From Siphonodentalium dalli (taxonomy: Eukaryota > Mollusca > Scaphopoda > Gadilida > Siphonodentaliidae): a stretch of DNA of 64,000 bases. The stretch is taken from the NCBI GenBank assembly GCA_032622095.1, contig CP136065.1:39187503-39251502 (forward strand). Reading direction: 5' to 3'. Positions 9,996 through 63,906 of the stretch are shown piece by piece (position 1 is the first letter of the stretch; each line of letters begins with the position of its first letter). A program made the position numbers and the translations under genes. The notes beneath the pieces are model-generated. The model saw only the letters and a list, made by a program, of their open reading frames with translations, made no database searches and was not told the origin of the DNA.

Positions 9996-9999
9996 TATT

Positions 10000-19262: not shown

Positions 19263-19745
19263 TATAACATTAATACTTGGGGATGTACACGTAGAACTGA
19301 TTTATTCACAAAATCCACCTCTAACTGCAAACCAACCCATATAATAAGCACCATGGTTGTAGTGCCATTTTTATTGATTTTGCGAACAGCATAACATATT
19401 AAACACTTAAATTTAAATTAAATTATTATATTTGATTTTAAGATAACCTGTTAACCTGAACGTTGGTTTACGGAAGACATCTTCGACTCAAATGAATTAT
19501 TTCCCTTTATATATTATCGATATTAGATCGTTATTGTTACTGGGGAGTTATTGAAATTGGCGTACACTGTCGCTTTAAAGTCTGAAGATCGGAATAACAT
19601 CTCTGTACCGGTATGTTAAATTAACTCTTATCCATCGATCCTTCCAATTATTAAACTTTATACGAGCATTGTCCATTAAGATAGTGAATATTTCAACTGA
19701 CACAAAACGTGTCACCTAAACGAATAACCATAAAATATATATACC
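19263..19745 (+). repeat. Dispersed repeat, part B (copy 1, uninterrupted)
   Basis: Matches 62,990-63,260 with 63,905-64,000, and 47,530-47,784. It preserves two empty sites: 'attaatacttggggatg' (19,271) for the pearl-like insertion at 62,081-62,986, and 'gcattgtccattaagatag' (19,666) for the Harbinger-like insertion at 47,788-58,402. Confidence 0.75.
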
Positions 19746-36571: not shown

Positions 36572-37921
36572 TTACACCTGGCCCACATATGATGTGATAG
36601 AGTAGTTCGACCCATTTGAAACCACGAAGCACATCCTGGTAGGGTTGACACATATTCCGATGGGATTGGTTACTGATATTACTGAGCGACTACGTTGTCC
36701 GTCACGGCTCAATTCCATCACTTGGTTACTGGTGTAGTTGCAGACGTAAATGTTGTCGCCGAACACACACACGCCAGTCGGACTAGACCCGCCACACGGT
36801 ATTGTGCTGAGATGAGTCGCGAGATCCGGGGACATCACTACCACGTGATGTGCGTTATGATCCGTCACAAAGACGGCGTCGATCTCAGGGGATACTGCCA
36901 CGCCACAAGGATTCTTGAAAGCGTATGTCGACTGACCAATGACGTCACCACTCGTTGTTAGAGCGCGCACGCAATGATCGCCGGGACATGCCACAACTAA
37001 TCTGTCGCCGACGGATCCGATACCTCTACAACCTCCAGATACAGGAAACGATGTTTGATGACTAAGACCTGATGTTTGATACACCGATATCTGACTTTGT
37101 TCCGGGTGTGATAGGTAGATGCGATCACTAAGATGATAGATACCAGACGGTTGAGAGTTGACCGTGAGGGTGACAGTCTTGGTGATTTTACCTGTATGTG
37201 TTACCAACATGAGCGTGTTCGGATTGTATGATGCAATAATTATATCCGATTGTGGACTTTTGTTGAGGAACGCCATTACCGACCAAGTTCCTCCGCAGGA
37301 AAAGTCGAATTCCTTTACTAATTGACTGATAGGCTTCTGACAAATAGCAATATCACACGAATCACTCAAAATCGTCTCTACCGAATCCAAAACTCCTCTA
37401 TTGATGACGGCCTCGTAATCTATCGGCGATAACTGTTCGAAATCTCTAAGCAGACTTTTTGAATTGGATACAGTTTGATGGAGCTTGATTGAGCGCTCGT
37501 TTAGAGATTTAACCCTTTGTGCAGCAGATACTTCTGAAGTAGCCTGTGCGTCGACAGGAACGTCCTCTCCTCCCGGGTTTATTTCCGCCCATTCACATGA
37601 ACGTGATTCCGCCTCTTTTTCTGGTAACAGTTCTACTTGTCTGTCTCTCTTAAGTTCGGACAGAACGTTTACTATCTTATCTACGCTCCGTGATGATAAC
37701 TTATGCTTTGACATTGTATCTCTAACGCGATTGAACATTTTCTTCTCGCAGTCATCGACGATACGTCGAATCTCAGAAAATAAATTCTGAACCTCCGCCA
37801 TCATATCCTTCTCTCTTCCGTCCTGTTTGGTCAGCCAACCGGGAATAGATTCCTGCTTATTGTTTGCTTCCGAGAATAATTGATCAAGATCTGATTCGAA
37901 TTGTTGGACATCCGCTTCCAT
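36572..37921 (-). CDS. Second B-box/NHL-type paralogue; downstream ORF after a B-box frameshift
   Basis: 449 codons, open from an internal ATG equivalent to Met49 of the gene at 26,918. Seen: coiled-coil region about 1-160, then NHL-type propeller blades (about 205-449) with 'NPCGVAVSP..DAVFVTDHNAHHVVV', 'SPTGVCVFGDNIYVCN' and 'NPIGICVNPTRMCFVVSNG'-like strands. The paralogous start (minus-strand ATG at 38,064-38,062) does exist and is followed by the first B-box Cys/His residues, but a one-base deletion near 38,000 shifts the frame and a TAG follows. So either the protein starts at 37,921 and has lost its B-box, or the locus is a young pseudogene, or the base is a sequencing error. The rest of the ORF is undamaged, which favours recent loss, error, or function of the propeller alone. 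Confidence 0.75.
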   Translation of the reverse strand: MEADVQQFESDLDQLFSEANNKQESIPGWLTKQDGREKDMMAEVQNLFSEIRRIVDDCEKKMFNRVRDTMSKHKLSSRSVDKIVNVLSELKRDRQVELLPEKEAESRSCEWAEINPGGEDVPVDAQATSEVSAAQRVKSLNERSIKLHQTVSNSKSLLRDFEQLSPIDYEAVINRGVLDSVETILSDSCDIAICQKPISQLVKEFDFSCGGTWSVMAFLNKSPQSDIIIASYNPNTLMLVTHTGKITKTVTLTVNSQPSGIYHLSDRIYLSHPEQSQISVYQTSGLSHQTSFPVSGGCRGIGSVGDRLVVACPGDHCVRALTTSGDVIGQSTYAFKNPCGVAVSPEIDAVFVTDHNAHHVVVMSPDLATHLSTIPCGGSSPTGVCVFGDNIYVCNYTSNQVMELSRDGQRSRSVISVTNPIGICVNPTRMCFVVSNGSNYSITSYVGQV

Positions 37922-38064
37922 CTTTGATATCGCTTTCGACAGATCTTCTAGTTGACATTTTGGATATGCTACCTCATGGCATGAGGCACAGCAAGGTTAA
38001 CGTGGGTACCACAGAATGAGTCTATAGGTTGTGGGTGCAGCTCACAAAATTCGGCGGCCGACAT
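37922..38064 (-). pseudogene. Frameshifted B-box segment of the second paralogue
   Basis: Starts MSAAEFCELHPQ (compare MSTVDFCSLHSQ in the intact gene) and keeps the FCGTH motif. It then has one base fewer than the intact paralogue before the shared 'gcatatccaaaatgtcaact' stretch, giving a premature TAG. In the other frame the second half still encodes a CC..CH..AYPKC-like ending. Confidence 0.8.
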
Positions 38065-39090: not shown

Positions 39091-39925
39091 CCTCTTGAAG
39101 ACGATCGAAATTTCCAACACGACGAAATTATATTTCCAACCACTTGTAATTTTTGAACTGTTACTTTAACCTTTCTAACTGTTGGATAGTTCCAACAATA
39201 CCCCTGGCTGGAGTTATATCAACTGCAATTGCTATTTCAGTCTAAACAATTGCACAACCAGAACATGGCTTGATATAAATCATTTGCTCGGAATGAATGA
39301 CATAAACAACAAGACAGTCAATGACTGTGGGGTCGCTCACCAGACTGCAAAGACTGATAAGACTGGGACTCTGGAGACCACAACAGTCAGAACTTTTCAT
39401 AATCACTTTAAAATAAGTAGATCTAAACAGGATATGTGGCCAAATTACCAACTGTACACTACTGATCACCCCCACCCCCCAACATGTCCCCTCCCGACTG
39501 GGCTCCAGACTCCCAAGTCTTAGGTTGGATTTACACAATTGACATCTCAAACTTTCCCAATTGTTGGAAATTTCCAATCTCACAAGCGCCTTTTTATAAA
39601 ACCATTTAGACGTGTTTAAAGGCCAATTATCCATGGACCCAAAACATACTAAATATAAAAAAATAGACCTGTAGGTCCTTGTGAAGGAAGCATATTAAGA
39701 GGGAAACTGTCCTTCGCTTGGCCCCTATTTTTCCAGGTTACCCCATTAAAAAAATCTGTATTGCAGTCAAACAAGAACATTCCATGCTAAATAAGCCAAC
39801 TAGTTCTTGGCTCTTCCAAACATATTTTAAGAATTACTATGTTGTGAAATAGTTGTGTCTCTGGCAATGCACTTATTCGACTTTGTGATGCCATTTTCAC
39901 AAATCTGTCAACAAAGGTAATTTCA
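39091..39925. other. Non-coding with dispersed repeat at 39,300-39,425
   Basis: 39,300-39,425 is an inverted copy of 10,000-10,112. The two long ORFs crossing it (113 and 130 codons, opposite strands) come from the repeat. No gene recognised. Confidence 0.5.
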
Positions 39926-39929
39926 TACC

Positions 39930-40515
39930 AAATATAAGCAAAATAGCCATTTCATTCTTGCATAGAAGACGTATCATGAATTACTATGGAGAGAAAAGGT
40001 AATGTAGCGGGCCTTGCACCTACTTGACCTGGTGACCATGATTAAACAAATCTGAATCACACATCACCAAAGGAGCCTCAATATTAAATGTGAGCTAAAT
40101 AGAGCTGGTGGTTCTTTCAAAGAACACTTTTCAAGTTTGCCAAATATGTTCTGGTGAAGTGGTGGATGTGGGAGAGTTAAATGTCCTGTTGAAAGATTTG
40201 AACAACACATACGATAGATTGATGTTGTAGTTGGGAATTAATGACCTCTAGCGGTTCTCCAGGAAATGTTTATAAAAATGTCAGATATCACTTGCAATTT
40301 TTAATATATTTTGGAGTTATGTCCCTGGCCCTGCCCACATTTGACCCAGTGACTTCATTTGAACAAATCTGAATGTGAGTCACCTAGGCAATATCCACAC
40401 CAAATATGAATCCATACAGTCTTATGGTTCCAGAGGAGAAGTTTAAAGAATTGTTGACGGACGGACGGATGAGGAGTGATGACTATAGCTCCACCGGACA
40501 CTTCGTCTCAGGTGA
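39930..40515 (+). mobile_element. Pearl/HINE-like element (family 2), decayed
   Basis: Core words ('gttatgtccctggccctgcccacatttgacccagtgac', 'gaacaaatctgaatgtgagtcacctaggcaa') are followed by 'gttgacggacggacgga' and the 3' hairpin end CCACCGGACACTTCGTCTCA then GGTGAGC. The 5' end is not clear. Confidence 0.65.
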
Positions 40516-40589
40516 GCCAAAAACTACTGAAATTATAGAATGACCCCCCCCCCCCTTTGGATCCCAGAATGCAACAGAATTCAAACTTG

Positions 40590-40850
40590 TTTAATGGAAG
40601 GGGAAGAACTCTATCTTTAATATATAGAGTTATTCCCCCTGCATTGAAAATAATATTGCTTTTTACTGCAATCTAGATGACAAAACTCTTTGGCAACTCA
40701 ATAAAAACAACATGTCCACAGTTTATTATACTGGATAAGTTGATAATACAATGTTTTGGAGCTTCCTCTTTCAAATGGTATATAAAATGGCATATATTTT
40801 ATATAATGTAATCTGGGGGTTAAAAAATTAAGTAGTTTATTATTTTATAT
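40590..40850 (-). mobile_element. Diverged copy of the GGCCCACTTAATTTTCGA MITE
   Basis: In reverse orientation it carries the same interior as 31,190-31,706 ('aaggggaagaactctatctttaatatatagagttattccccctgc', 'ggagcttcctctttcaaatggtatata'). The termini are worn. Confidence 0.65.
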
Positions 40851-41010
40851 TCATTTTAGTCTAAATAATTAATTTTGAGAAAACAAATTACATCTCATTG
40901 AACAAATCTGCTAATTCCACCCCCTCAACCCATAGGGACATGCCTGCAAGAATAGGACATCTATGATTTATTTGGATGCTTGTCTACATTTGCCTAACAA
41001 TTTTTCCTTA

Positions 41011-41445
41011 ACCTTGAAAGCCAGTGCATTCTCTTAGGTGAGGCTACCTATGGGACACTCACATATATAAGACAATGCACTGGCATCATACTAGTACCTT
41101 GTTATAAAATAATAAATATTGGACAAATATTAAAACTAGGAGCTCCTTTCTCTTGATCAATGGTCTATTATTTTATATTCATTTTATTTTAGTATATGTA
41201 ATTGGTTTTGGAAAATAAATTACATCTCAATGAACAAATCTGATAAATTTTCCCCTCCCCAAACATATGTGGGGACATCCCTGCGAGAATAGGACATGTG
41301 TGATTTATTTGGATGTCTGACTATATTGGCCTAACAATATTTCCTTGATCTTGGACCCCAGTGTATTCTATTATATACAGGAGAACACACTGGTGCAGTG
41401 TCTTTGTTGCTGTACCAGCATAGCTCTGGTAATGAAATGGTTAAT
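41011..41445. repeat. Hairpin MITE relics
   Basis: GCCAGTGCATTCTCTTA (41,020-41,036) pairs with TAAGACAATGCACTGGC (41,068-41,084). A second, weaker pair lies at 41,360-41,400 ('cccagtgtattctatta' / 'gagaacacactgg'). Both resemble the hairpin of the TTAA MITE at 3,236-3,318. Confidence 0.55.
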
Positions 41446-41780
41446 ACTAATACTAAAGGTGTAAACTGTCAAACAGTTAGAGTTGTATTTGAGATTGCTG
41501 TAAACACATAGGATTAAATTTCATTCACACACATCTTTCTCTCTTAGCCAGGATAAAATAAAAGTTAATTACTTTATAATGACTGGACACACAGCTGTGA
41601 GAACTGTGAGAAGTAAGGCTGGCCAGTTCCTGGCGTGCCATAACTACAGTGTAAGGCTTTTAATGGGGTGAACCTTGCAGGGATCTGGTGTGGGGTGGCA
41701 GGGACATGTAGTGGTGGTGGTGGGGGAGGTGGGGTGGGGGCAAGGATTTAAAACAAGAATTTAAATTAATTTTTGTTTGT
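41446..41780. other. No gene; G-rich spot at 41,700-41,745
   Basis: Non-coding. 'gtggtggtggtgggggaggtggggtgggggc' is a simple G-rich run. Confidence 0.4.
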
Positions 41781-41784
41781 TTGA

Positions 41785-42345
41785 AGAGTTATGTCCCTGG
41801 GCCCTGGCTCTGCCCCTATTTGACCCAGTGACCCCATTTGAACAAATCTGAACCCCAGTTATCCAAGGACTCTCCATATCAAATATAAGCTAAATTGGCC
41901 AAATGGTTCAAAAGAAGAAGTCATTCTAAGAATTACTATGGAGGAATAGAGTTATGGCCCTGGTTTCTCAACTAATCAACCTGGTGTCCTCATTTGAACA
42001 AATCTGAATGTGAGTCACCTGGGGAACATCCACACCAAATATGAACCCATTGGGCCTTATAGTTCTGGAAAAGAAGCCGTTCTAAGAATTACTATGAAGG
42101 AATAGAGTTGTGGCCCTGCTTTCTAAACTAATTGACCTGATGACCTCATTTGAACAAATCTGAATATATGAGTCACCTAGGGAACATCCACACCAAATAT
42201 GAACCCATTCCGTCCAATGGAATCAGAGGAGAAGATGTTCAAAGAATTGTTGACGGATTGACGGACGGACGGACGGACGACGGACGAGGAGTGATTGACT
42301 ATAGCTCCACCGGAGACTTCGTCTCAGGTGAGCTAAAAACCATAA
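41785..42345 (+). mobile_element. Pearl/HINE-like element (family 2) with intact 3' end
   Basis: Three to four core units of about 120-125 bp ('ttctaagaattactatggaggaatagagttatggccctg', 'catttgaacaaatctgaa'), an ACGG microsatellite (42,258-42,285), then 'ctatagctccaccggagac ttc gtctcaggtgagctaaaaa', in which CCGGAGAC/GTCTCAGG forms the 3' hairpin. Confidence 0.75.
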
Positions 42346-46333: not shown

Positions 46334-47165
46334 TTAGGGATCAAAACGCTCAGTCGCTGCAATATATTGCTGTGTGATGAGAAATAATTTCTTATTTTTT
46401 TGGGACGAGACATCGGGTATTCCACACATGAGTTCAGCAGTATCGGTTATTGCGATATTTTCGCGGGTCAGTTTCACTAGAAATTCGGAGCGCTCACTTT
46501 GGTACAATGGGCACATGAAGAAATGGTGATAGGCGTCCTCATATCGATTTCCACAGGGACATGCGGGGCTATCAGCGATGAAATTGTTGAACATATCAGA
46601 TCGGAGTTCACTACAGAAATTACGTATGCGACAATGAACAATGTTGTATTTTCTGCGTCCAGCGTAGAAATGTTGAGGGGGACTGAGCGTGGGATCTATC
46701 AGGTTCAAGTCGGTTTTAAAGGTAGAAAATTGGTCCGCGTCGGTGATTAATTTGGGAAGTTTATTCCATTCTAAGACTATCACTGGGAAAAATGATTGTT
46801 TGAAGTGTTCAGTGTTGCTATGGTATGAATAAAATTTACTGGGACGACGCCAATTATAATCTGCAACTTCATGTGATCTGGGTAGGAAGATAGGATCGAT
46901 AGGAAGGTGCTAAATTATTAACTATTTTATAGAGTGCCTGCAATTTATGTATTTGACGTCTTTTGTATAGTGAAGGCCAACCAACTTCCTGTAGTGCCAT
47001 ATTGTCCGAAGCAGAATGGGTGATACCACTGACTATACGCCCAGCGTCGATATGAAGCCGGTCAAGCATCTCTAACAGTAATCCGAAGGATTGTCCCACA
47101 CTGCATCCGAGTAATCAAATAGGGGTAATATATATGTTTTGTAAATAATTTCAATGGTTTTCTCC
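46334..47165 (-). mobile_element. Non-LTR retrotransposon relic (C-terminal end of reverse transcriptase ORF)
   Basis: Minus strand, three frames in order: 'YKTYILPLFDYSDAVWDN' (about 47,150-47,095), then 46,869-47,099 with 'RIVSG', 'ELGWPSLYKRRQIHKL'-type and 'LYKIVNNLAPSYRSYLP' stretches, then 46,334-46,870 with 'LPRSHEVADYNWRRPSKFYSY', 'SFFPVIVLEWNKLP' and a CxC...HHxxxC knuckle near the end. These are the familiar tail motifs of jockey/CR1-like reverse transcriptase ORFs. At least two frameshifts; the rest of the RT, the endonuclease and the 5' end are missing (5' truncation is usual for LINEs). The 3' tail may extend to about 45,840. Confidence 0.8.
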
Positions 47166-47169
47166 AGTT

Positions 47170-47529
47170 AACATGGACCACATTAACAGACAATTATATC
47201 TATTGTCAATATATCACCCGTGTGGCCTTAGTAATGATTGTGGCAATGTTTTCTTTGCACAATATAACTTCAAATTAAATTTAACCAAAAAAATAAAATA
47301 TAGCTCAATACTTCTATTTCAAATACATGTAGTTCATGGGTGATCTGCTGTATACATCTTAGATTTCTTGTATTCTAATAATGCTGTAGTATATGCAGAA
47401 TAGTCCCACATAAACATTAATTGTATTATTTCACGTGTGGGTGGCTTGAGCTCACTCCCCGAACCAACATATTTTGTTTACACGATGTGTACCACACGTT
47501 ATTAATTTATGGCTGGAGCCATGAATTAA
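47170..47529. other. No gene seen
   Basis: Non-coding. Contains the palindrome TTAATTTATGGCTGGAGCC followed by ATGAATTAA at about 47,501-47,530. Confidence 0.4.
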
Positions 47530-47784
47530 ATTTATAACTTAATTTGATTTTAAGATAACATGTTAAACTGAACGTTTACAGAAGACATCTTCGACTCAAA
47601 TGAATTATTTATTTCCATTTATATGTTATCGATATTAGATCGTTATTATTACTGGGAATTTATTTATATTGGCGTACAGTGTCCCTTTAAAAAGGCTGTA
47701 GATCGATATATCATATCTGTACCGGTATGTTAAATTAGCTCTTATACATCCTTCCAATTATTTACAATAAACGAGCATTGTCCG
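47530..47784 (+). repeat. Dispersed repeat, part B (copy 2, left piece)
   Basis: Collinear with 19,440-19,670 and 63,120-63,260/63,905-63,960. It is cut at 'cattgtccgtta' by the Harbinger-like element; the homologous continuation resumes at 58,403. Confidence 0.8.
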
Positions 47785-48123
47785 TTAGGGCGCGTACACA
47801 TGGCGGGCAAGAAAATATCAGGTATGCCCCATGTGACTTACTTGACCAATCAAATAAATAATACCGGAAAATATCCGACGAAGGCAGCGCGCTGATATTT
47901 TATCGCCAGTTGGTGATATGTGTTCACCTTGATTGGTGGACATCGGTATCTGTTAACTAATCTCTATAAGGGACACGCTGGTATAACCGTTCACGCACTC
48001 GAGTTATGATCCATCAATATTATCGCCTGTTTCAACAATTGACTTCGTAATTCCATTTTGGATTGTTTGACATTATCGCTGAGCTATTATATGGATATGT
48101 GTGGGGACATATATATCAGAAGA

Positions 48124-48256
48124 ATAGGCGTCTCCTTACCGTCACATCTAAAAATAGAATCTTTGGGGGTCTAAAATTGGTTGTGGGTGTCTCGTTCGCG
48201 TCACATCTAAAAATAGAATCTTTGGGGTCTAAAATTGGTTGTACTAAAATATTCCC
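48124..48256 (+). repeat. Terminal motif pair, left end of the palindromic element
   Basis: A 60-bp unit with CACATCTAAAAATAGAATCT, 'ttgggg' and 'tctaaaattggttgt' occurs twice in tandem. A third copy lies at the inner end of the arm (52,484-52,535), upstream of the first ORF. Confidence 0.85.
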
Positions 48257-48420
48257 AAAATATCAAAAACCCAAAAATTATTTTTCCAAAAATTATTTTT
48301 TCCAAAACATTTCAAAATCCCAAAACTTCCAAAAAATTTTAAAACCCCAAAATTTCAAAAAAGAAAAAAATTCAAAACCCTCAAAATTATTTCTCCAAAA
48401 AAAGTTTAAATAAAAAATTT
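48256..48420 (+). repeat. A-rich 'ccaaaa/ttcaaaa' low-complexity tract (mirror at 57,252-57,416)
   Basis: Variants of 'tcccaaaa', 'ttccaaaa' and 'tttcaaaa' next to the terminal motif. The same combination of terminal motif plus a 'cttcaaaaatttcaaaaa' tract appears at the inner arm end (52,536-52,668), so the two ends of an arm resemble each other in direct orientation. Confidence 0.75.
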
Positions 48421-49055
48421 ATAACGAGTTTTCGGTTTCTGATAATCTCGATATTAAAATGTCGAATGTTAAATTATTTGCGCGTAATATCTTTCGTTAT
48501 TTTTTTTTGTTCAAATATTTTTCATGAAATTATTAATCGATGTTTAGAAATAGCTTTATTGGACATTGTGACCATCGATATGAATGCATACATTCCAGTG
48601 TTTTATCGGACGCAGTTCATATAATTGTCATACCTGAAAATAGACACCATTACTTTTACATAAATAATAAAGAGCGTTTATTCTTTACACTCTCTCTATC
48701 CCATATGACAGGTGTGTATTATCGTGAATTATTGGAAGTTTTGAGATGTACTATGTTCAATCCCTAACGGTCGAAAATTGTAATGTGAAATTACAACCCT
48801 CCAGAATGAATTGTCATATTCGCTGTACACGCAATCACACGCGACATTGGTGGTAACAATGTGTCTTTCACACCTTTGCTTTACCAAATGAATTATATTA
48901 TTTCCCCGGTCACAGTTATATGCTATTCAGAAAACATATCGATTTAATGTCTGAACAAACGAGTTAGTATCAATTAAGGTTGATAAACTGTGTCATTCAC
49001 ACGATAATTAGTTAGCCAAAAACATGCATACGTCCAGGACACTCAATTATATAAA

Positions 49056-49640
49056 TTGCTTTGATGACATTGTTATAACAACATTACGTAATAACCACTT
49101 ATCGCCCCACATTCATACTTACGCTTTGGACATTTTATCAGTTTATCACGTGATCACTAAATGTGGCAATCGGGTATCCACCGATGCCTGCAATATATTA
49201 TTTATAATAATTGGACTCATTGATCTCACGTGAATAATACTCTTAGTTGTTCCAATAAAATAGTTATCAAATTCGATCACCAATAGATTTGACTGTGGAA
49301 TGTAATGACCTTTAACTTATTTATCGATCTAAAGGGACACTCATTATGAATGAATGTTAACAATACAAGCGCACGGATGAAGAGCGTTGAACATATACGA
49401 AATTACTACACGAATGAATTGAACCTTGAAATTTATATTTCACATCTTACCAACAACAGCTACAGACATAATCATAGTATTATACTGTCTTGCATGTACA
49501 CACGCTATGACATCATTAAAGGCGGACAATCCACTCATGGTGTGACAACAGATACAGACATAGGCATAGTGTTATACAGTCTTCTATGTACCCATGCGAT
49601 GACACCATTAAAGTACATTGGATGTTAGGTCTATGACTCT
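49056..49640 (+). repeat. Internal direct repeat of the left arm, copy 1
   Basis: 49,125-49,320 recurs at 50,290-50,500 ('cattttatcagtttatcacgtgatcactaaatgtggcaa'). 49,333-49,620 recurs at 50,897-51,180 and in part at 50,668-50,830 ('gaagagcgttgaacatatacgaaattactacacgaatga'). Short ORFs lie in both copies but contain internal 110-bp sub-repeats, so they are probably not genes. Mirrored in the right arm (56,032-56,616). Confidence 0.7.
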
Positions 49641-49655
49641 TGAGTATGCACCAAT

Positions 49656-50021
49656 CAATGAGCAAATGAGCAATAAAAATGAGCAAATGAGCAAGAAAGT
49701 GAGCAAATGAGCAAGAAAATGAGCAAATGAGCAAGAAAATGAGCAAATGAGCAAGAAAATGAGCAAATGAGCAATAAAAATGAGCAAATGAGCATAAAAA
49801 TTAGCAAATGAGCAAGAAAATGAGCAAATGAGCAAGAAAATGAGCAAATGAGCAATAAAAATGAGCAAATGAGCAAAAAAATTAGCAAATGAGCAAGAAA
49901 ATGAGCAAATGAGCAATAAAAATGAGCAAATGAGCAAATAAATGAGCAAATGAGCAAAAAAATGAGCAATAAAATGAGCAAATGAGCAATAAAAATGAGC
50001 AAATGAGCAAAAAAATGGGCA
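49656..50021 (+). repeat. Subterminal GAGCAAAT tandem array, left arm
   Basis: About 366 bp of 'gagcaaatgagcaagaaaat' (period about 20 bp, built on a 9-11-bp half unit), with aat/aag/aaa variants. The hydrophobic 'LICSF' ORFs read through it on the minus strand are artefacts. One unit differs between arms (g/t). Confidence 0.9.
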
Positions 50022-51305
50022 TACCTGTATGTAGGCCTACCAGTGGATGAATAGTCTGCCGGAGAAGTACTGTGTAGACAGGTCTTGTCGGTAAGAGAGT
50101 CAGACGATAAGTGAAGGCTCGGCTATTAAAACATAGTAATGCGATAGCGAACATCAAACGAGTCTGCGCACGCATATCTGTCAAAGGATACGATGGCAGT
50201 CATTGGTCAATTTATCCCCGGTGTCAGCTCAGTACCCAATCGGGACGAAGCCGAAGGTCAACTCATTTTTTTTTGCTCATTATAGTACGTCACTTGAACA
50301 TTTTATCAGTTTATCACGTGATCACTAAATGTGGCAATTGGGTATCCACCGATGCCTGCAATTTATTATTTATAATAATTGGACTCATTGATCTCACGTA
50401 AATAATACTCTTAGTTGTTCCAATAAAATAGTTATCAAATTCGATCACCAATAGATTTGACTGTGGAATATAATGACCTTTAACTTATTTATCGATCTAT
50501 GTTAGAACATGGTCTTAACAAAAAACTTGACCATAACAAAAATTACCTTACATTTATGCATGAATCTAATTAGACCATACGTAAATATTGTCAGCTTATC
50601 GTCTGATGAGCAAATCCGATGTTTATCAAAAATAGTACAACTTCCAGTTGGTAATTACTCTTACGAATGAAGAGCGTTGAACATATACGAAATTACTACA
50701 CGAATGAACTGAAATTTATATTTTCACATCTTACCAACAACAGATACAGACATAGTCATAGTGTTATACTATCTTACATGTACCCATGCTATGACATCAT
50801 TCGAAGGGACAATACACTCAATGAGTTAAAGTGACACGAAACAAGGGACGTGATGTAATATTGGTGTTTGAATCTTAAAGGAACACAAGACACTCTAAAG
50901 GGACACTCATTATGAATGAATGTTAACAATACAAGCGCACGAATGAAGAGCGTTGAACATATACGAAATTACTACACGAATGAATTGAACCTTGAAATTT
51001 ATATTTCACATCTTACCAACAACAGCTACATGCATTATCATAGGGTTATACTGTCTTGCATATACACACGCTATGACATCATTAAAGGCGGACAATCCAC
51101 TCACGGTGTGACAACAGATACAGACATAGGCATAGTGTTATACAGTCTTCTATGTACCAATGCTATGACATAATTAAAGGGGGGATAATACACGCACGGT
51201 GTGGAATGTTAAAGTGACACGCGGTAAGGGACGTGATGTAATATTGGTGAAACCCCCCCCCCTTATAGATATATAACGAAGACGAGAATAACATGTTGAT
51301 GAAGT

Positions 51306-51311
51306 TTATTG
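51306..51311 (-). terminator. Poly(A) signal AATAAA for the zinc-finger ORF, left arm
   Basis: AATAAA on the minus strand a few bases past the stop of the 189-codon ORF; mirrored at 54,361-54,366. Such tight spacing is virus-like. Confidence 0.6.
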
Positions 51312-51315
51312 AAAT

Positions 51316-51885
51316 TTAATCATTGTCTGAATCTTCGACCGTTAGATTTACTTCTAAGAGTTTCTTGAATTTTCTCATCGCTTCATCTGCAGCCCATTCA
51401 TTATTATATCCGTGTTTGGTCAGTTTGACCATTTTCTTCATGATCATGGTATGTATGCGTGATGTTTTCAATCGATACTGGTATTCTATTAATCGTCTAT
51501 AACTTTTGAGAAACAGAGCAAACTCTGTGTCGATGGTATCCTCTTTTCCCGACATGCTCTCATCTCCCGAAATGCTCTCTTCTTCTTTCACATCATTGGT
51601 GACACGTTTCATCATACTTTTGAATGTGTCCATCTCGTTGACACATCGCGCAGCTTTCTTAAGACCGAATACCGTTCTACTACCGACGCCATTACCATCT
51701 TCTGAATCTGATAGCGTTCCACGTTCATCTTCATCTGAATCTAGAACCGCTTCGTCAGATTCATCGGTATCTTCTCCGAAGAGAGTTGGTTTTGTCTCGG
51801 ACATAACTCCGTGTTTAATCTGTTTATGTCTTTGTAGATTGTAGTTCGTCGATAAAATAATGCCACATAAATCACACCCGTGCAT
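51316..51885 (-). CDS. C2H2 zinc-finger / acidic protein of the palindromic element (left arm, intact)
   Basis: 189 residues. Seen: one C2H2 finger at the N-terminus (C4, C7, H20, H25; spacing C-x2-C-x12-H-x4-H), a strongly acidic Ser/Asp/Glu stretch about 38-65, a second acidic patch about 100-118, then a basic helical C-terminal domain (about 120-180) with several Tyr and Lys. This suggests a nucleic-acid-binding regulatory or packaging protein, but I do not recognise a family. The ATG lies 28 nt after TATAAGAG (a TATA-like box) and overlaps the end of the 64-codon ORF; AATAAA follows the stop. The right-arm twin is interrupted by a stop. Confidence 0.7.
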   Translation of the reverse strand: MHGCDLCGIILSTNYNLQRHKQIKHGVMSETKPTLFGEDTDESDEAVLDSDEDERGTLSDSEDGNGVGSRTVFGLKKAARCVNEMDTFKSMMKRVTNDVKEEESISGDESMSGKEDTIDTEFALFLKSYRRLIEYQYRLKTSRIHTMIMKKMVKLTKHGYNNEWAADEAMRKFKKLLEVNLTVEDSDND

Positions 51886-52066
51886 TATCGCGAATTATTG
51901 GAAGAACCATCACTCTTATAAGTAGCGATAAAAAGAGAGAATAAGGTGCGGTATACAACCGTCGCTCTAAGAGTACGTTCGTCCCGGGGCTAGGGTATAG
52001 ATATTTGACCGCCGGTGATTCAATTAATGCCAATTTATCAGTATGGTACTCTATGTATTCATTCAT
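51872..52066 (-). CDS. Small ORF of the palindromic element (left arm, 64 aa)
   Basis: 64 codons, starting 7 nt after the stop of the 108-codon ORF and overlapping the start of the zinc-finger ORF by 14 nt. The C-terminal half has a hydrophobic run (about residues 43-58) ending in Arg/Asn. The same ORF is intact in the right arm. However, the putative TATA box of the next gene lies within it, so its 3' half may be open by chance. Product unknown. Confidence 0.45.
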   Translation of the reverse strand: MNEYIEYHTDKLALIESPAVKYLYPSPGTNVLLERRLYTAPYSLFLSLLIRVMVLPIIRDNARV

Positions 52067-52073
52067 GATTTGG

Positions 52074-52400
52074 CTAATCGTATGACACTGCTCTTTTCAT
52101 TTTCTTCTTATTATTATTAGACAAACCTCCATCAGACACTCTCTTGTTGGTTTGTTTGGACGATTTACGTGTGTTTGTCAACTTATTTGCTGCAACTTCA
52201 GCCTTAGCCATTTCAATCGCTTGAGCGATGGGTGTCACCACGTTAATAAGTGGTTTTAAAACGTCTTCTTCACTATCACTATTTTTAGTTCTGTCAATAA
52301 AGTATCGACCCTGATTATCTGGTATTAACTTCCCATCAACCATATCTCTGAAATGTTTTCTCCACATTTCAAGATCTGCTGGAATATACGGGATCGACAT
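52074..52400 (-). CDS. Small basic protein of the palindromic element (left arm, 108 aa)
   Basis: 108 residues: N-terminal block with aromatic and charged residues (IPYIPADLEMWRKHF...), an acidic patch (SDSEED, about 41-46), then a Lys-rich tail ending KKKMKR near residue 100 that looks like a nuclear-localisation or nucleic-acid-binding signal. Codon 2 is Ser here and Trp in the right-arm twin, one base apart. A TATA-like TATAAGAG lies 61 nt before the ATG, beyond that the internal copy of the terminal motif. Family not recognised; from context a small virion-core or DNA-binding protein is possible. Confidence 0.65.
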   Translation of the reverse strand: MSIPYIPADLEMWRKHFRDMVDGKLIPDNQGRYFIDRTKNSDSEEDVLKPLINVVTPIAQAIEMAKAEVAANKLTNTRKSSKQTNKRVSDGGLSNNNKKKMKRAVSYD

Positions 52401-52460
52401 GTTTCTTCAAAATGTACAAGTCACTCTTTTTTCTGCATTTTATTTTAGAAAGTTTATCGC

Positions 52461-52468
52461 CTCTTATA
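52461..52468 (-). promoter_or_regulatory. TATA-like box before the 108-aa ORF, left arm
   Basis: TATAAGAG on the minus strand (plus strand CTCTTATA), mirrored at 53,203-53,210. The same octamer precedes the zinc-finger ORF (51,913-51,920; mirrored 53,751-53,758), suggesting one promoter class. Confidence 0.5.
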
Positions 52469-52535
52469 AAAATCGATTATTGCATCTAAAAATAGAATCT
52501 TTGGGTCTAAAATTGGTTGTACTAAAATATTCCCA

Positions 52536-52900
52536 AAAAACCCAAAACTTCAAAAATTTCAAAAAACTTCAAAAATTTCAAAAAACTTCAAAAATTTCAA
52601 AAACTTCAAAAATTTCAAAAATTTCAAAAACTTCAAAAAACTTCAAAAATTTAAAAAAATTCAAAAATAAGACCCCGCCGGCGGCGGACCCCGGCGGCGG
52701 CGGCGGCGGCAACCGGCGGCGGCGGCAACCGGCGGCGGCATTGCGGTAATGACGGTATTTGCCGCCGGCGGCGGTGGCATTGCAGTATTTTACTGCGGGG
52801 TCCGTCGGTGGCGGACCCCGGCGGCGGCGGCGGCACCGCCGCCGCAGTAAAATACCGCAATGCCGCCGCCGCCGGCGGCAAATACCGGCATTACCGCAAT

Positions 52901-52936
<36 letters not shown>

Positions 52937-53132
52937 AAATACCGTCATTACCGCAATGCCGCCGCCGCCGCCGCCGCCGGGGTCCGCCGCCGGCGGGGTC
53001 TTATTTTTGAAGTTTTTGAATTTTTTGAAGTTTTTTGAAGTTTTTGAAATTTTTGAAATTTTTGAAGTTTTTGAAAATTTTGAAGTTTTTTGAAATTTTT
53101 GAAGTTTTTTGAAATTTTTGAAGTTTTGGGTT
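52536..53132. other. Centre of the palindrome: TTCAAAAA tracts flanking a CGG-rich core
   Basis: 52,536-52,668 and 53,000-53,132 are 'cttcaaaaatttcaaaaa' tracts (inverted). Between them are about 330 bp of (CGG)n/(CCG)n with unit 'attgcggtaatgacggtatttgccgc'. The axis is near 52,820; the non-complementary spacer contains a small stem GGGGTCCG/CGGACCCC (52,797-52,819). The right side has about 31 bp more (one extra CGG-block unit). The Pro/Ala/Gly-rich ORFs here are artefacts. It lies between two divergent gene cassettes and may act as their common upstream region. Confidence 0.8.
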
Positions 53133-53202
53133 TTTTGGGAATATTTTAGTACAACCAATTTTAGACCCAAAGATTCTATTTTTAGATGCAATAATCGATT
53201 TT

Positions 53203-53210
53203 TATAAGAG
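53203..53210 (+). promoter_or_regulatory. TATA-like box before the 108-aa ORF, right arm
   Basis: TATAAGAG, 61 nt upstream of the ATG at 53,271; mirror of 52,461-52,468. Confidence 0.5.
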
Positions 53211-53270
53211 GCGATAAACTTTCTAAAATAAAATGCAGAAAAAAGAGTGACTTGTACATTTTGAAGAAAC

Positions 53271-53597
53271 ATGTGGATCCCGTATATTCCAGCAGATCTT
53301 GAAATGTGGAGAAAACATTTCAGAGATATGGTTGATGGGAAGTTAATACCAGATAATCAGGGTCGATACTTTATTGACAGAACTAAAAATAGTGATAGTG
53401 AAGAAGACGTTCTAAAACCACTTATTAACGTGGTGACACCCATCGCTCAAGCGATTGAAATGGCTAAGGCTGAAGTTGCAGCAAATAAGTTGACAAACAC
53501 ACGTAAATCGTCCAAACAAACCAACAAGAGAGTGTCTGATGGAGGTTTGTCTAATAATAATAAGAAGAAAATGAAAAGAGCAGTGTCATACGATTAG
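53271..53597 (+). CDS. Small basic protein of the palindromic element (right arm, 108 aa)
   Basis: Twin of the ORF at 52,074-52,400, identical in length and sequence except residue 2 (Trp for Ser). Both copies being open and nearly identical means either recent origin, concerted evolution between arms, or selection. Function unknown (see left-arm entry). Confidence 0.65.
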   Translation: MWIPYIPADLEMWRKHFRDMVDGKLIPDNQGRYFIDRTKNSDSEEDVLKPLINVVTPIAQAIEMAKAEVAANKLTNTRKSSKQTNKRVSDGGLSNNNKKKMKRAVSYD

Positions 53598-53604
53598 CCA
53601 AATC

Positions 53605-53799
53605 ATGAATGAATACATAGAGTACCATACTGATAAATTGGCATTAATTGAATCACCGGCGGTCAAATATCTATACCCTAGCCCCGGGACGAACGTACTC
53701 TTAGAGCGACGGTTGTATACCGCACCTTATTCTCTCTTTTTATCGCTACTTATAAGAGTGATGGTTCTTCCAATAATTCGCGATAATGCACGGGTGTGA
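53605..53799 (+). CDS. Small ORF of the palindromic element (right arm, 64 aa)
   Basis: Identical to the left-arm ORF at 51,872-52,066. It follows the 108-codon ORF by 7 nt and overlaps the zinc-finger start at 53,786. Confidence 0.45.
   Translation: MNEYIEYHTDKLALIESPAVKYLYPSPGTNVLLERRLYTAPYSLFLSLLIRVMVLPIIRDNARV
53751..53758 (+). promoter_or_regulatory. TATA-like box before the zinc-finger ORF, right arm
   Basis: TATAAGAG, 28 nt before the ATG at 53,786, inside the 64-codon ORF. Transcription from it would start almost at the ATG. Confidence 0.5.
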
Positions 53800-54355
53800 T
53801 TTATGTGGCATTATTTTATCGACGAACTACAATCTACAAAGACATAAACAGATTAAACACGGAGTTATGTCCGAGACAAAACCAACTCTCTTCGGAGAAG
53901 ATACCGATGAATCTGACGAAGCGGTTCTAGATTCAGATGAAGATGAACGTGGAACGCTATCAGATTCAGAAGATGGTAATGGCGTCGGTAGTAGAACGGT
54001 ATTCGGTCTTAAGAAAGCTGCGTGATGTGTCAACGAGATGGACACATTCAAAAGTATGATGAAACGTGTCACCAATGATGTGAAAGAAGAAGAGAGCATT
54101 TCGGGAGATGAGAGCATGTCGGGAAAAGAGGATACCATCGACACAGAGTTTGCTCTGTTTCTCAAAAGTTATAGACGATTAATAGAATACCAGTATCGAT
54201 TGAAAACATCACGCATACATACCATGATCATGAAGAAAATGGTCAAACTGACCAAACACGGATATAATAATGAATGGGCTGCAGATGAAGCGATGAGAAA
54301 ATTCAAGAAACTCTTAGAAGTAAATCTAACGGTCGAAGATTCAGACAATGATTAA
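53786..54355 (+). pseudogene. C2H2 zinc-finger / acidic protein, right arm, interrupted by a stop
   Basis: Same 189-codon frame as the left arm, but codon 80 is TGA where the left arm has CGA (a C-to-T change). The N-terminal 79 codons keep the zinc finger and acidic stretch; an ATG five codons after the stop reopens the C-terminal 105 codons. So only the left arm can make the full protein. AATAAA follows at 54,361. Confidence 0.85.
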
Positions 54356-54360
54356 ATTTC

Positions 54361-54366
54361 AATAAA
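54361..54366 (+). terminator. Poly(A) signal AATAAA, right arm
   Basis: Five bases after the TAA of the zinc-finger frame; mirror of the left-arm signal. Confidence 0.6.
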
Positions 54367-57300
54367 CTTCATCAACATGTTATTCTCGTCTTCGTTATAT
54401 ATCTATAAGGGGGGGGGGGTTTCACCAATATTACATCACGTCCCTTACCGCGTGTCACTTTAACATTCCACACCGTGCGTGTATTATCCCCCCTTTAATT
54501 ATGTCATAGCATTGGTACATGGAAGACTGTATAACACTATGCCTATGTCTGTATCTGTTGTCACACCGTGAGTGGATTGTCCGCCTTTAATGATGTCATA
54601 GCGTGTGTATATGCAAGACAGTATAACCCTATGATAATGCATGTAGCTGTTGTTGGTAAGATGTGAAATATAAATTTCAAGGTTCAATTCATTCGTGTAG
54701 TAATTTCGTATATGTTCAACGCTCTTCATTCGTGCGCTTGTATTGTTAACATTCATTCATAATGAGTGTCCCTTTAGAGTGTCTTGTGTTCCTTTAAGAT
54801 TCAAACACCAATATTACATCACGTCCCTTGTTTCGTGTCACTTTAACTCCTTGAGTGTATTGCCCCTTCGAATGATGTCATAGCATGGGTACATGTAAGA
54901 TAGTATAACACTATGACTATGTCTGTATCTGTTGTTGGTAAGATGTGAAAATATAAATTTCAGTTCATTCGTGTAGTAATTTCGTATATGTTCAACGCTC
55001 TTCATTCGTAAGAGTAATTACCAACTGGAAGTTGTACTATTTTTGATAAACATCGGATTTGCTCATCAGACGATAAGCGGACAATATTTACGTATGGTCT
55101 AATTAGATTCATGCATAAATGTAAGGTAATTTTTGTTATGGTCAAGTTTTTTGTTAAGACCATGTTCTAACATAGATCGATAAATAAGTTAAAGGTCATT
55201 ATATTCCACAGTCAAATCTATTGGTGATCGAATTTGATAACTATTTTATTGGAACAACTAAGAGTATTATTTACGTGAGATCAATGAGTCCAATTATTAT
55301 AAATAATAAATTGCAGGCATCGGTGGATACCCAATTGCCACATTTAGTGATCACGTGATAAACTGATAAAATGTTCAAGTGACGTACTATAATGAGCAAA
55401 AAAAAATGAGTTGACCTTCGGCTTCGTCCCGATTGGGTACTGAGCTGACACCGGGGATAAATTGACCAATGACTGCCATCGTATCCTTTGACAGATATGC
55501 GTGCGCAGACTCGTTTGATGTTCGCTATCGCATTACTATGTTTTAATAGCCGAGCCTTCACTTATCGTCTGACTCTCTTACCGACAAGACCTGTCTACAC
55601 AGTACTTCTCCGGCAGACTATTCATCCACTGGTAGGCCTACATACAGGTATGCCCATTTTTTTGCTCATTTGCTCATTTTTATTGCTCATTTGCTCATTT
55701 TATTGCTCATTTTTTTGCTCATTTGCTCATTTATTTGCTCATTTGCTCATTTTTATTGCTCATTTGCTCATTTTCTTGCTCATTTGCTAATTTTTTTGCT
55801 CATTTGCTCATTTTTATTGCTCATTTGCTCATTTTCTTGCTCATTTGCTCATTTTATTGCTCATTTGCTAATTTTTATGCTCATTTGCTCATTTTTATTG
55901 CTCATTTGCTCATTTTCTTGCTCATTTGCTCATTTTCTTGCTCATTTGCTCATTTTCTTGCTCATTTGCTCACTTTCTTGCTCATTTGCTCATTTTTATT
56001 GCTCATTTGCTCATTGATTGGTGCATACTCAAGAGTCATAGACCTAACATCCAATGTACTTTAATGGTGTCATCGCATGGGTACATAGAAGACTGTATAA
56101 CACTATGCCTATGTCTGTATCTGTTGTCACACCATGAGTGGATTGTCCGCCTTTAATGATGTCATAGCGTGTGTACATGCAAGACAGTATAATACTATGA
56201 TTATGTCTGTAGCTGTTGTTGGTAAGATGTGAAATATAAATTTCAAGGTTCAATTCATTCGTGTAGTAATTTCGTATATGTTCAACGCTCTTCATCCGTG
56301 CGCTTGTATTGTTAACATTCATTCATAATGAGTGTCCCTTTAGATCGATAAATAAGTTAAAGGTCATTACATTCCACAGTCAAATCTATTGGTGATCGAA
56401 TTTGATAACTATTTTATTGGAACAACTAAGAGTATTATTCACGTGAGATCAATGAGTCCAATTATTATAAATAATATATTGCAGGCATCGGTGGATACCC
56501 GATTGCCACATTTAGTGATCACGTGATAAACTGATAAAATGTCCAAAGCGTAAGTATGAATGTGGGGCGATAAGTGGTTATTACGTAATGTTGTTATAAC
56601 AATGTCATCAAAGCAATTTATATAATTGAGTGTCCTGGACGTATGCATGTTTTTGGCTAACTAATTATCGTGTGAATGACACAGTTTATCAACCTTAATT
56701 GATACTAACTCGTTTGTTCAGACATTAAATCGATATGTTTTCTGAATAGCATATAACTGTGACCGGGGAAATAATATAATTCATTTGGTAAAGCAAAGGT
56801 GTGAAAGACACATTGTTACCACCAATGTCGCGTGTGATTGCGTGTACAGCGAATATGACAATTCATTCTGGAGGGTTGTAATTTCACATTACAATTTTCG
56901 ACCGTTAGGGATTGAACATAGTACATCTCAAAACTTCCAATAATTCACGATAATACACACCTGTCATATGGGATAGAGAGAGTCTAAAGAATAAACGCTC
57001 TTTATTATTTATGTAAAAGTAATGGTGTCTATTTTCAGGTATGACAATTATATGAACTGCGTCCGATAAAACACTGGAATGTATGCATTCATATCGATGG
57101 TCACAATGTCCAATAAAGCTATTTCTAAACATCGATTAATAATTTCATGAAAAATATTTGAACAAAAAAAAATAACGAAAGATATTACGCGCAAATAATT
57201 TAACATTCGACATTTTAATATCGAGATTATCAGAAACCGAAAACTCGTTATAAATTTTTTATTTAAACTTTTTTTGGAGAAATAATTTTGAGGGTTTTGA

Positions 57301-57415
57301 ATTTTTTTCTTTTTTGAAATTTTGGGGTTTTAAAATTTTTTGGAAGTTTTGGGATTTTGAAATTTTTTGGAAAAAATAATTTTTGGAAAAATAATTTTTG
57401 GGTTTTTGATATTTT
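54367..57415. other. Outer non-coding part of the right arm
   Basis: Mirror of 48,257-51,305: internal direct repeats, the GAGCAAAT array, and short ORFs without family. The 75-codon ORF next to the outer end (56,905-57,132; twin 48,540-48,767) is free of tandem repeats and open in both arms with one residue changed, so it is the only outer ORF that might be real. Confidence 0.6.
55651..56016 (-). repeat. Subterminal GAGCAAAT tandem array, right arm
   Basis: Inverted mirror of the left-arm array with nearly the same unit order, an order that would be unlikely to survive long without gene conversion or recent origin. Confidence 0.9.
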
Positions 57416-57548
57416 GGGAATATTTTAGTACAACCAATTTTAGACCCCAAAGATTCTATTTTTAGATGTGACGCGAACGAGACACCCACAACCAATTTTA
57501 GACCCCCAAAGATTCTATTTTTAGATGTGACGGTAAGGAGACGCCTAT
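57416..57548 (-). repeat. Terminal motif pair, right end of the palindromic element
   Basis: Mirror image of 48,124-48,256, with its third copy at 53,137-53,188. Confidence 0.85.
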
Positions 57549-57560
57549 TCTTCTTATATC

Positions 57561-58402
57561 TTTTGAGGGTTTCCGCTGACGGAGGATGTCCATGGACCAA
57601 AGACCAAAGACCCAAGATCACATAATTGAATTTGCACACCTCCCATCGTCTTTGAATTTCCCAAGTACCTCACATACCTTGAATTTTGACTCGACACCGG
57701 GGAGGGAGGGGCCTAGAAGAAATTCCAAACCAATAATTTGACCAAAGTAGGAAAAATGCAAATGTTGGTATAAAACCACGAATTCCATACACATTAATGG
57801 TTGAAAAATCAGACTACAAGAACAATTTCAAACCATTGTTGTGAAATTTCCAACTAATATTGTTTCCAAGATGGCGGGGGTCTCATGTCACCACATGCAC
57901 CCATGTAAGTTCGGTAACGTAATGTACACCACAGCCACATGCACCAAGCAACAATCTCCTGAAAACTTCATATGGGGTATCAATGGGGGTGGGGTCATCC
58001 GATTTGCCACAAAACCATAATAACATATGTCATCCCACATATACATGCACTATGAAATTATAACATTTCCAAATTTCCAAATAACGTGACCACTATCTCA
58101 TTATGCAGACGGTCTTTATGCATGAGATCAGCAACGTTGCTAATCCCACCCGACTTCGGTAATACATGTCAACAGTTGGAAATTTCAAAAAGCTATGAAT
58201 TGCCAAAATGGACTATAGGTTATTTACCGACGCAATTCACTTGAACCAGCATGACTAATACTGTTCTGATTGAGCTCAATCAACGCCGTCTAAACCGCCA
58301 CGTTCTCACGGGCGTAATCTTTGCAGCAAGAAAATATCAGTGTGCAATTTTACCTGATATTTTCTTGCAGATATTTTCTTGCAGCTTCATGTGTACGCGC
58401 CC
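57561..58402. other. Right part of the Harbinger-like element
   Basis: Non-coding. Near 58,325-58,380 'gcaagaaaatatca' and 'tgatattttcttgc' lie close together, a small hairpin in the subterminal region. Confidence 0.6.
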
Positions 58403-59990
58403 TTAAGATAGTGTATAGTTCAACAACCTGTTTTGAGACACAAACCGTTTCACCGAAACGAATAAACATAAAATATATATATGACAGTCACACGATTTAG
58501 AAATCTAAGTCATACCTAAATATAGAATCGCGCGATGACGAAACGAAACCGAAACAGATTGGGAAGCAGCTTGTCGGGGAATTACCCAGAATCTATTTTG
58601 CACTTCCGTAAATACGTTGCATATTCTACGCGGTCATGTCTATACATGTACGCCTGATGTCGCGGGTGAACACAGTGAATGTACATGAATAGTAATTGAC
58701 CGCCAAATATACACAACACACCAGTTCATCGACATCAAAATATTGCTGTTATATAAACCTTAGTGAGATCATGTATGAATGTACGCTGACCTTAGGCTTA
58801 TTTCGTGCTCGACGGCCAATTATTCAATATAATTGTCTCTCTAAATGACCGATGTACATCAAATACATCGTAAATCATGCATTCTAATTATCCCATAATA
58901 GGGATGGAACACTCTGCACATGATTGTATTGCCAGATACTTACGTGTTTTAGTGTTTCGCTTGAAAGTATTCACAGAAGGTTTGAGCTCAGTGGATCTAA
59001 GTATAATAGCTATGAGAGATAACTCTACCTGGTGTTTGGACATGAGTATTCAGATAACAATACTTTAAAACTGTATGGATTCGGGGATGGAACGCTTGTA
59101 CTATTTTCCAGTATACTCAATCGCATTGACGCCATGAGCAATTTTGACTGGTTAAGTCCATAAATTCCCGTGGGACGGCTAAGCTCTCATCACCACGCAC
59201 TACTCATTGTCTTCTGAACGACACAGATAACTTTAATAAAACAAATTTCTGTAAGGCTATACCAAATAAACATCAATAGATTATCATCACATTTTCTTAG
59301 AAAATTGGGGCGGCGAATTTTATGTTTTATCTTTAAATTACTGCGCCACATTCAGTGATAAAACAGTCCTATATTCACGAATGCATACATAGTGCTAAAC
59401 TATATACGCATCAGTAAAATGTAATATGTGTAAATAAACATTGATAAATTATAATACAACTATTTGTATTTTTATCGTCTACATTGATGTATGGGTTTAT
59501 ATTATGAAGAACGTAATGGATAAGTTACGCAAGTGAAACTGGTTCATACCAAACCACAATATTGTTATGTTTAAGAGAATAATTATTCACAGTATCTCTA
59601 TATTTGGTATGTGTGCAAACTGTAAACGTGCTTGAACAGACTTCAGCATTCCACACAACCCATGCAAGCATCAATGACATTTGTTAAATAGGGGTAGACT
59701 CATCCATGTGGATCGTTATACGTAGCTATACTTTTTTGTAATGACGATGAATGTATTACTGGCCTTCGACATAGTGTCATTATTATCATATATCGTCTAT
59801 ATCATCTTTGTGATAAAGGTATACCCACATTCCACAGTCTATTGTTTTACAGCGGGTATTAGGGGCCGTTCATAGGGTGGCCAAAACATCGGGGACCGAG
59901 GTGATAATTTAGGCATTTTTACAGGTCTACCATTAAATACTGGTCAATTTATAAATCATGTAGTAATTCTAGACAGGTATTGTCATCCGT
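58403..59990 (+). repeat. Dispersed repeat, part C (copy 3)
   Basis: Continues the B copy interrupted at 47,784. Collinear with 19,670-21,240 ('taaacataaaatatatata', 'cgatgacgaaacgaaaccgaaacagattggg.a.cagcttgtcgggg', 'gatacttacgtgttttag'). Confidence 0.8.
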
Positions 59991-62986: not shown

Positions 62987-63254
62987 AGGGGATGTAGAAT
63001 TCATTTATTCACAAAACTAGAAACCAACCCATATAGAAAGCACCATGGTTGTAGTGCCATTTTTATTCATTCTGCACACATCATAACATATTAAACAGTT
63101 AGATGTATATTAAATTATTAGATTTGATTTTAAGACAACATGTTAACCTGAACGTTTACAGAAGACATCGTCCACTCAAATGAATTATTCCCCTTTATAT
63201 ATTATCGATATTAGATCGTGATTATTACCGGGAATTTATTGAAATTGGCGTACA
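62987..63254 (+). repeat. Dispersed repeat, part B (copy 3)
   Basis: Resumes the A-B repeat after the pearl-like insertion: 'gaattcatttattcacaaaact', 'gcaccatggttgtagtgccatttttatt', as at 19,295-19,560. Confidence 0.75.
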
Positions 63255-63906
63255 GTGTGACTTTAAAGGCTGTAGATCGGTATATCATCTATGTACCGGT
63301 ATCTTAAGGCTGTAGATCGGTATATCATCTCTGTATCGGTATCTTAATGCTGTAGATCGGTATATCATCTCTGTACCGGTATCTTAATGTTGTAGATCGG
63401 TATATCATCTCTGTACCGGTATCTTAAGGCTGCAGATCGGTATGTCATCTCTGTACCGGTATCTTAAGGCTGCAGATCGGTATATCATCTCTGTACCGGT
63501 ATCTTAAGGCTGTATGTCGGTATATCATCTCTGTACCGGTAACTTAAGGCTGTATGTCGGTATATCATCTCTTTACCGGTATCTTAAGGCTGTATATCGG
63601 TATATCACCTCTGTGCCGGTATCTTAAGGCTGTATATCGTTATATCATCTCTGTACCGGTATCTTAAGGCTGCAGTTCGGTATATCATCTCTGTACCGGT
63701 ATCTTAAGGCTGTATATCGGTATATCATCTCTGTACCGGTATCTTAAGGCTGTATATCGGTATATCATCTCTGTACCGGTATCTTAAGGCTGTATATCGT
63801 TATATCATATCTGTACCGGTATCTTAAGGCTGTATATCGTTATATCATCTCTGTACCGGTATCTTAAGGCTGTAGATCGGTATATCATCTCTGTACCGGT
63901 ATCTTA
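63255..63906 (+). repeat. 40-bp minisatellite, about 16 copies
   Basis: Unit GGCTGTAGATCGGTATATCA followed by 'tctctgtaccggtatcttaa', very regular. The single-copy ancestor is visible at 19,575-19,620 and 47,690-47,735 in the other B copies, so the array arose by expansion within this copy. Confidence 0.93.

Follow-up and report, generated by a model that had tools for sequence, protein, structure and literature searches.

A 9.4-kb palindromic element with Polinton-like ends in the genome of the scaphopod Siphonodentalium dalli

Intact Polinton/Maverick (adintovirus) elements described from vertebrates are 12.7–24.6 kb long, carry terminal inverted repeats (TIRs) of 46–1,447 bp and are flanked by 6-bp target site duplications (TSDs) (PMC8097293). 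The tips reported in the same study mostly read (AGT)2//(ACT)2 or (AG)3//(CT)3, with (AC)3A instead in one fish, and its authors link such doubled motifs to jumping-back in protein-primed replication (PMC8097293). A protein-primed PolB and TIRs are also described for the small bidnaviruses and Vesanto-like segments (PMC4061559, PMC8363768), and the repeat tip of BmBDV, GTGTGTGT, is common to a wasp polintovirus (PMC4061559). Here we analysed a stretch of 64,000 nucleotides from the scaphopod mollusc Siphonodentalium dalli (assembly GCA_032622095.1, contig CP136065.1, positions 39,187,503–39,251,502 of the forward strand; referred to below as the window), which contains a 9.4-kb element that is palindromic over its whole length and has ends resembling those of Polintons. 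The explanation that we prefer, and to which we give about an even chance, is that this is a non-autonomous element that is mobilised by a retroviral-like integrase of the Polinton/Maverick type and became self-complementary via a hairpin turn-around before integration.

The element proper occupies positions 48118–57554 of the window (9,437 bp), starts with AGAAGAATAGGCG and finishes with CGCCTATTCTTCT. On both sides it is flanked by TATATC (48112–48117 and 57555–57560); the duplication is exactly 6 bp long, the bases adjoining the two copies differ, and the chance of a 6-mer match at random places within the window is about 3.8 × 10−4. The original prediction, made from the sequence alone, had placed the borders correctly, although its interval (48112–57560) took in both TATATC copies; the 6-bp direct duplication and the AG...CT ends that it described (AGAAG...CTTCT) were borne out. 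It had not remarked on the tip itself, which is a doubled triplet: the left end reads AGAAGA, or (AGA)2 (48118–48123, plus strand), and is mirrored at the right end by (TCT)2 on the plus strand (57549–57554, the tip lying on the minus strand). The element thus resembles Polintons/Mavericks in its 6-bp TSD, AG/CT ends and TIRs, and its doubled short motif has the same form as the (AGT)2 and (AG)3 motifs of vertebrate Mavericks, the form connected with jumping-back (PMC8097293). The remainder of the window contained nothing similar at E ≤ 1e-3. Nor did we find an empty site when the two flanks, joined, were used as a query against the rest of the window; the only matches fell in a repeat of the left flank (47526–47787) that is dispersed in the window, with similar copies at 19413–19678, 2477–2597 (a partial copy) and about 63118–63307.

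We compared these features with those of other transposon superfamilies. IS3EU and GingerRoot agree with the element in TSD length, but are reported to end in TA..TA or TG..CA (PMC10045372). Dada elements, described as having 6–7-bp TSDs, no TIR and insertion sites in small nuclear RNA or transfer RNA (tRNA) genes (PMC3706591), do not match, since the element has a long TIR and no small RNA gene was found nearby; ARAGORN found no tRNA in the window, and Rfam at gathering score gave no match in 47000–58500. Ginger2 is described as starting with TGTNR, making 4- or 5-bp TSDs and inserting into RTATAY, with a 6-bp AT-rich preference (PMC2836005, PMC10045372). The element has neither the TGTNR termini nor the 4-/5-bp TSD of Ginger1/Ginger2, although its AT-rich target site does resemble the RTATAY preference (PMC2836005). 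Because the 6-bp-TSD superfamilies that we checked fail on ends or targets, a Polinton-type integrase, as suggested by the AG/CT ends together with the 6-bp TSD, is the best fit when judged by the ends alone.

Foldback-like elements of other classes, such as FB and Galileo, have very long inverted repeats that make up most of the element. FB and Galileo use other transposases, and TSDs of FB, Galileo and MULE elements are 7–11 bp long, whereas the TSD here is 6 bp; the transposases of these classes were looked for through the Pfam scans given below. That the element is of this foldback type, from another or an undescribed DNA transposon class making 6-bp TSDs by coincidence, seems unlikely to us, given the mismatches of IS3EU/GingerRoot, Dada and Ginger2 in ends, targets or TSD length; it would, however, accommodate the insertion site, which lies in a ATATATATC run while Ginger2 prefers the 6-bp AT-rich RTATAY (PMC2836005), and the gene content. 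Indeed, when 19 of the 44 unspliced open reading frames (ORFs) of at least 45 amino acids (aa) overlapping the left arm were scanned against Pfam, no family scored above cut-off, and no gene for PolB, retroviral-type integrase, ATPase, protease or capsid, nor any other Polinton gene, was recognised. In this the element differs from Polintons/Mavericks, as it does in its size (9.4 kb versus 12.7–24.6 kb in the intact vertebrate elements described) and in that its inverted repeats are the whole element, without a unique core.

The last point follows the original prediction, according to which two inverted 4.7-kb copies make up the entire element. The left arm (48118–52820, plus strand) and the right arm (52821–57554, minus strand), the latter longer by 31 bp in its GCC tracts, could be aligned up to the apex over 4,738 columns, of which 4,676 match and 23 do not; of the remaining 39 columns, which are gaps, all but one fall in the central GC-rich part. 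Arm pairing continues to the apex, leaving no single-copy core. The outer arms are identical in 4,580 of 4,601 columns; the 21 differences comprise 14 substitutions, a single indel within a run of C and, inside a GGC tract (52711–52717), six further columns. Long-read sequencing is known to yield artefacts that look like perfect palindromes. An assembly or sequencing artefact is hardly credible here, because the flanks differ between the two sides, a TSD is present and each arm carries scattered differences of its own.

The near-identity of the arms bears on the age of the insertion. Over about 4.42 kb of outer arm there are 10 substitutions (0.23%) and one indel; the insertion is therefore young unless the arms have been homogenised by converting each other. 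If 2e-9 per site per year is assumed as the neutral rate, this divergence would correspond to an age of roughly half a million years. The observed/expected CpG ratio is higher in the arms (1.03–1.04) than in the flanks (0.86–0.87) and the GC content is lower (35% versus 38%), fitting a recent arrival.

The TSD had been taken as proof that the palindrome preceded integration. It does show that both ends were inserted together, but it leaves the state of the interior undated. In particular, the loss of a core cannot be dated from the TSD alone, and an ordinary Polinton or Polinton-like element with long TIRs could have had its core deleted, before or after integration, so that two 4.7-kb TIRs became joined. 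Long TIRs are plausible, given that the filter in a study of cryptophyte Polinton-like viruses kept TIRs from 100 bp to 8 kb (PMC12220804). However, the TIRs reported for vertebrate Mavericks reach only 46–1,447 bp (PMC8097293), and the deletion would need near mirror-symmetric endpoints; there is no core remnant, only the 31 bp of extra GCC-tract sequence. We regard this course of events as improbable. Formation of the palindrome before integration is favoured, because, apart from the longer GCC tracts, the symmetry reaches the apex with nothing left of a core, and because a gene cassette (described below) also has its mirror copy.

The centre of the element (52671–53002) is 77% GC and forms an imperfect palindrome of GGC/GCC tracts. 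At the apex, two predicted hairpins on the plus strand (52796–52820 and 52821–52845), each with a 10-bp stem and a 5-nt loop, abut each other and would give a T-shaped tip. The apex (52820/52821) lies 15.5 bp off the geometric centre (52836), because of the longer GCC tracts of the right arm. The central 401 nt are predicted to fold with −239 kcal/mol, whereas shuffles averaged −117 (z = −22.4) and none of 100 was as stable. For the 50-nt apex, noticed as a shape after the fact, two stems of at least 9 bp were seen in 3 of 5,000 dinucleotide shuffles and equal stability in none of them; when 50-mers were taken at every fifth start across the rest of the window, 0 of 12,768 matched the apex in two stems and stability. 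Stricter controls were Markov sequences derived from the GC block: with orders 1, 2, 3 and 4, two stems were formed by 0, 1, 9 and 11 sequences per 4,000, and the stability was matched by 1, 8, 116 and 180. With 180 of 4,000 order-4 sequences matching its energy, the stability of the apex owes much to the GGC repeats; its shape, though uncommon, is accounted for by them in part.

The T-shaped apex, less than 16 bp from the geometric centre, raises the question of an integrated dimer of a 4.7-kb replicon with one protein-capped, Polinton-like end and one end resembling the T-shaped hairpin of a parvovirus telomere. The arm is about as long as a small hairpin genome such as that of adeno-associated virus (AAV; about 4.7 kb, PMC8235507). 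On the other hand, GGC repeats fold readily, as the order-3 and order-4 Markov sequences above demonstrate, the apex was singled out only in retrospect, and no Rep/NS1-like domain was found in the Pfam-scanned ORFs. We consider such a dimer very unlikely.

Each arm carries a cassette of three ORFs, of 108, 64 and 189 aa (p108, p64 and p189), read outward from the centre. In the left arm, on the minus strand, p108 (52074–52400) is followed after 7 nt by p64 (51872–52066), the end of which is overlapped by p189 (51316–51885), which is open. In the right arm, on the plus strand, p108 (53271–53597) is open, p64 (53605–53799) encodes an identical protein, and p189 (53786–54355) contains one in-frame stop. 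An ORF of at least 188 aa occurred in 1 of 1,000 shuffled arms; when the 1.1-kb block was shuffled 1,000 times, no shuffle contained a pair of ORFs of at least 188 and 108 aa. A TATA-like box lies upstream of the left p108 (52463–52468, minus strand) and an AATAAA polyadenylation-like signal directly past the p189 stop (51305–51310, minus strand); as signals of the cassette they are only suggestive, because AATAAA or ATTAAA occurs 8 times on that strand of the arm, once between the TATA-like box and p108.

The N-terminus of p189 has a C2H2 zinc-finger match below cut-off (Pfam, E 0.003), and its middle is acidic; its predicted structure is poor (mean pLDDT, predicted local distance difference test, of 43.5). 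For p108, a helix, short strands and a long helix were predicted at low confidence (mean pLDDT 65.3), with a basic C-terminal stretch, and a fold search with this model gave no match at E ≤ 0.001; we base no conclusion on either model. Neither p108 nor p189 had a match in the PDB. In PHROGs, p108 had one weak match (E 0.038), to a family without an assigned function; its Pfam match to a phage single-stranded DNA-binding family (E 0.046) is below cut-off and was taken as chance. Outside the cassette, about 3.2 kb of each arm (about two-thirds) is without convincing genes.

The palindrome, its ends, the TSD, the predicted apex fold and the open cassette are established directly, and from them we infer a helper, protein priming, a turn-around and the following order of events. 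The palindrome probably arose once, when a displaced Polinton-type strand turned round (snapped back) at the GC-rich apex hairpin, before integration. The protein-primed polymerase of a helper Polinton would start at one tip, which may be either of the two, where the doubled AGA would permit a jumping-back start, and would proceed along this arm, past the GC-rich apex and down the opposite arm, restoring the second tip. The displaced single strand could then fold at the apex into a 4.7-kb hairpin, the open end of which would again be a double-stranded origin. Such self-complementary refolding would perpetuate the palindrome and favour its upkeep, and the helper integrase would finally insert the 9.4-kb duplex as a unit.

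Defective palindromic adenovirus genomes are cases in which a protein-primed linear genome has turned into a palindrome; they are not known to be integrated with a TSD. Snapback genomes of AAV likewise consist of a half-genome joined to its own mirror image and replicate with helper proteins (PMC8235507). The element shares this half-and-mirror organization; AAV, as described there, depends on parvovirus Rep and hairpin ends, in contrast to the integrase-type ends with a TSD and the central hairpin seen here. Bidnaviruses and Vesanto-like segments differ in encoding PolB, and the accounts cited above describe bidnavirus TIRs as forming no hairpins and contain no description of a whole segment that is palindromic. 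Among the papers listed by searches of the PMC full-text literature, judged mainly by titles and the starts of abstracts, we saw no palindromic element of this kind, which leaves room for an earlier published description.

The original prediction of a defective Polinton-like genome formed by snap-back is upheld as far as the TSD and the ends are concerned, but a plain, fresh snap-back of a normal Polinton end fits imperfectly. At a normal end, core genes would be expected by 46–1,447 bp, the TIR range given for vertebrates, whereas about two-thirds of the arm has no convincing gene and the remainder holds one small cassette. Several other observations weigh against the explanation that we prefer. 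The (AGA)2 tip is not one of the common published motifs, (AGT)2 and (AG)3, though both of these also begin with AG; the TSD is AT-rich and lies inside the run mentioned above; and a single copy of the palindromic element is in hand. The arms, being mostly without convincing genes, do not look like a plain piece of a compact Polinton, and no Polinton gene was recognised in them. Searches of IMG/VR with p108, p189 (without its first Met) and p64 (as a 74-aa stop-to-stop frame) returned pattern matches, none confirmed as a relative, and a search of a phage collection with p108 found no relative. The ease with which Markov sequences reach the stability of the apex points the same way, as does the odd ratio among the 14 arm-to-arm substitutions (48308–52659), 4 of which are transitions and 10 transversions.

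It is conceivable, though doubtful, that the element belongs to a natural stable family of self-complementary elements that combines a protein-primed Polinton end on the outside with a T-shaped hairpin turn-around in the centre and outcompetes its helper. Each displaced strand would then refold into its own complete double-stranded origin, and a Polinton satellite would have turned into a heritable transposon with genes of its own. To our knowledge, the strand-displacement replication of animal Polintons has been inferred rather than directly observed. Should the ends prove to be of the kind that they resemble, the element would be a Polinton-type element reduced to a palindrome, in effect a snap-back genome preserved naturally within a chromosome. 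Being integrated and self-complementary, such a derivative would then be a physical record of strand displacement, making this step testable, and would add non-autonomous satellites to the Maverick world.

Several kinds of repeat occur in the arms. Just inside the left tip lies a subterminal tandem repeat (48127–48242, plus strand), the two units of which measure about 58 bp and are 91% alike. An additional copy, 92% alike to 48204–48279, lies just upstream of the gene cassette (52483–52558, plus strand) and is mirrored at about 53113–53188; it may be a promoter or a binding site common to the tip and the cassette, possibly for the zinc-finger ORF. Inward from this copy there are A/T-rich repeats, followed by the 77% GC centre. 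The stretch without convincing genes further contains, besides internal duplications that are 206 bp and 286 bp long, a minisatellite with 18.4 copies of a 20-bp unit (49657–50021, plus strand), mirrored in the right arm by one with likewise 18.4 copies (55651–56015, minus strand).

We also searched for relatives by the DNA of the termini. A subterminal 21-mer had no match in IMG/VR. In GTDB contigs it matched one Arcobacter contig, where the similarity amounts to 25 exactly matching bases; because this stretch looks like part of an ABC-transporter gene, the match was taken as chance. Two IMG/VR contigs contain the first 17 bases of the tip, internally and with no further similarity, and these matches were likewise taken as chance.

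Elsewhere in the window, a cluster of long repeats in inverted orientation relates 8746–10115 to 39304–42339, at about 75–97% similarity. ORF fragments on the minus strand at 46334–47114 resemble a degraded retroelement by eye; a Pfam search of 46337–46909 gave one weak, irrelevant match. Two long similar ORFs lie on the minus strand at 25425–26921, with an NHL repeat above the Pfam cut-off and a weak B-box, and at 36572–37996, alike by eye. ORFs of this NHL/B-box type suggest an animal host with TRIM-like genes.

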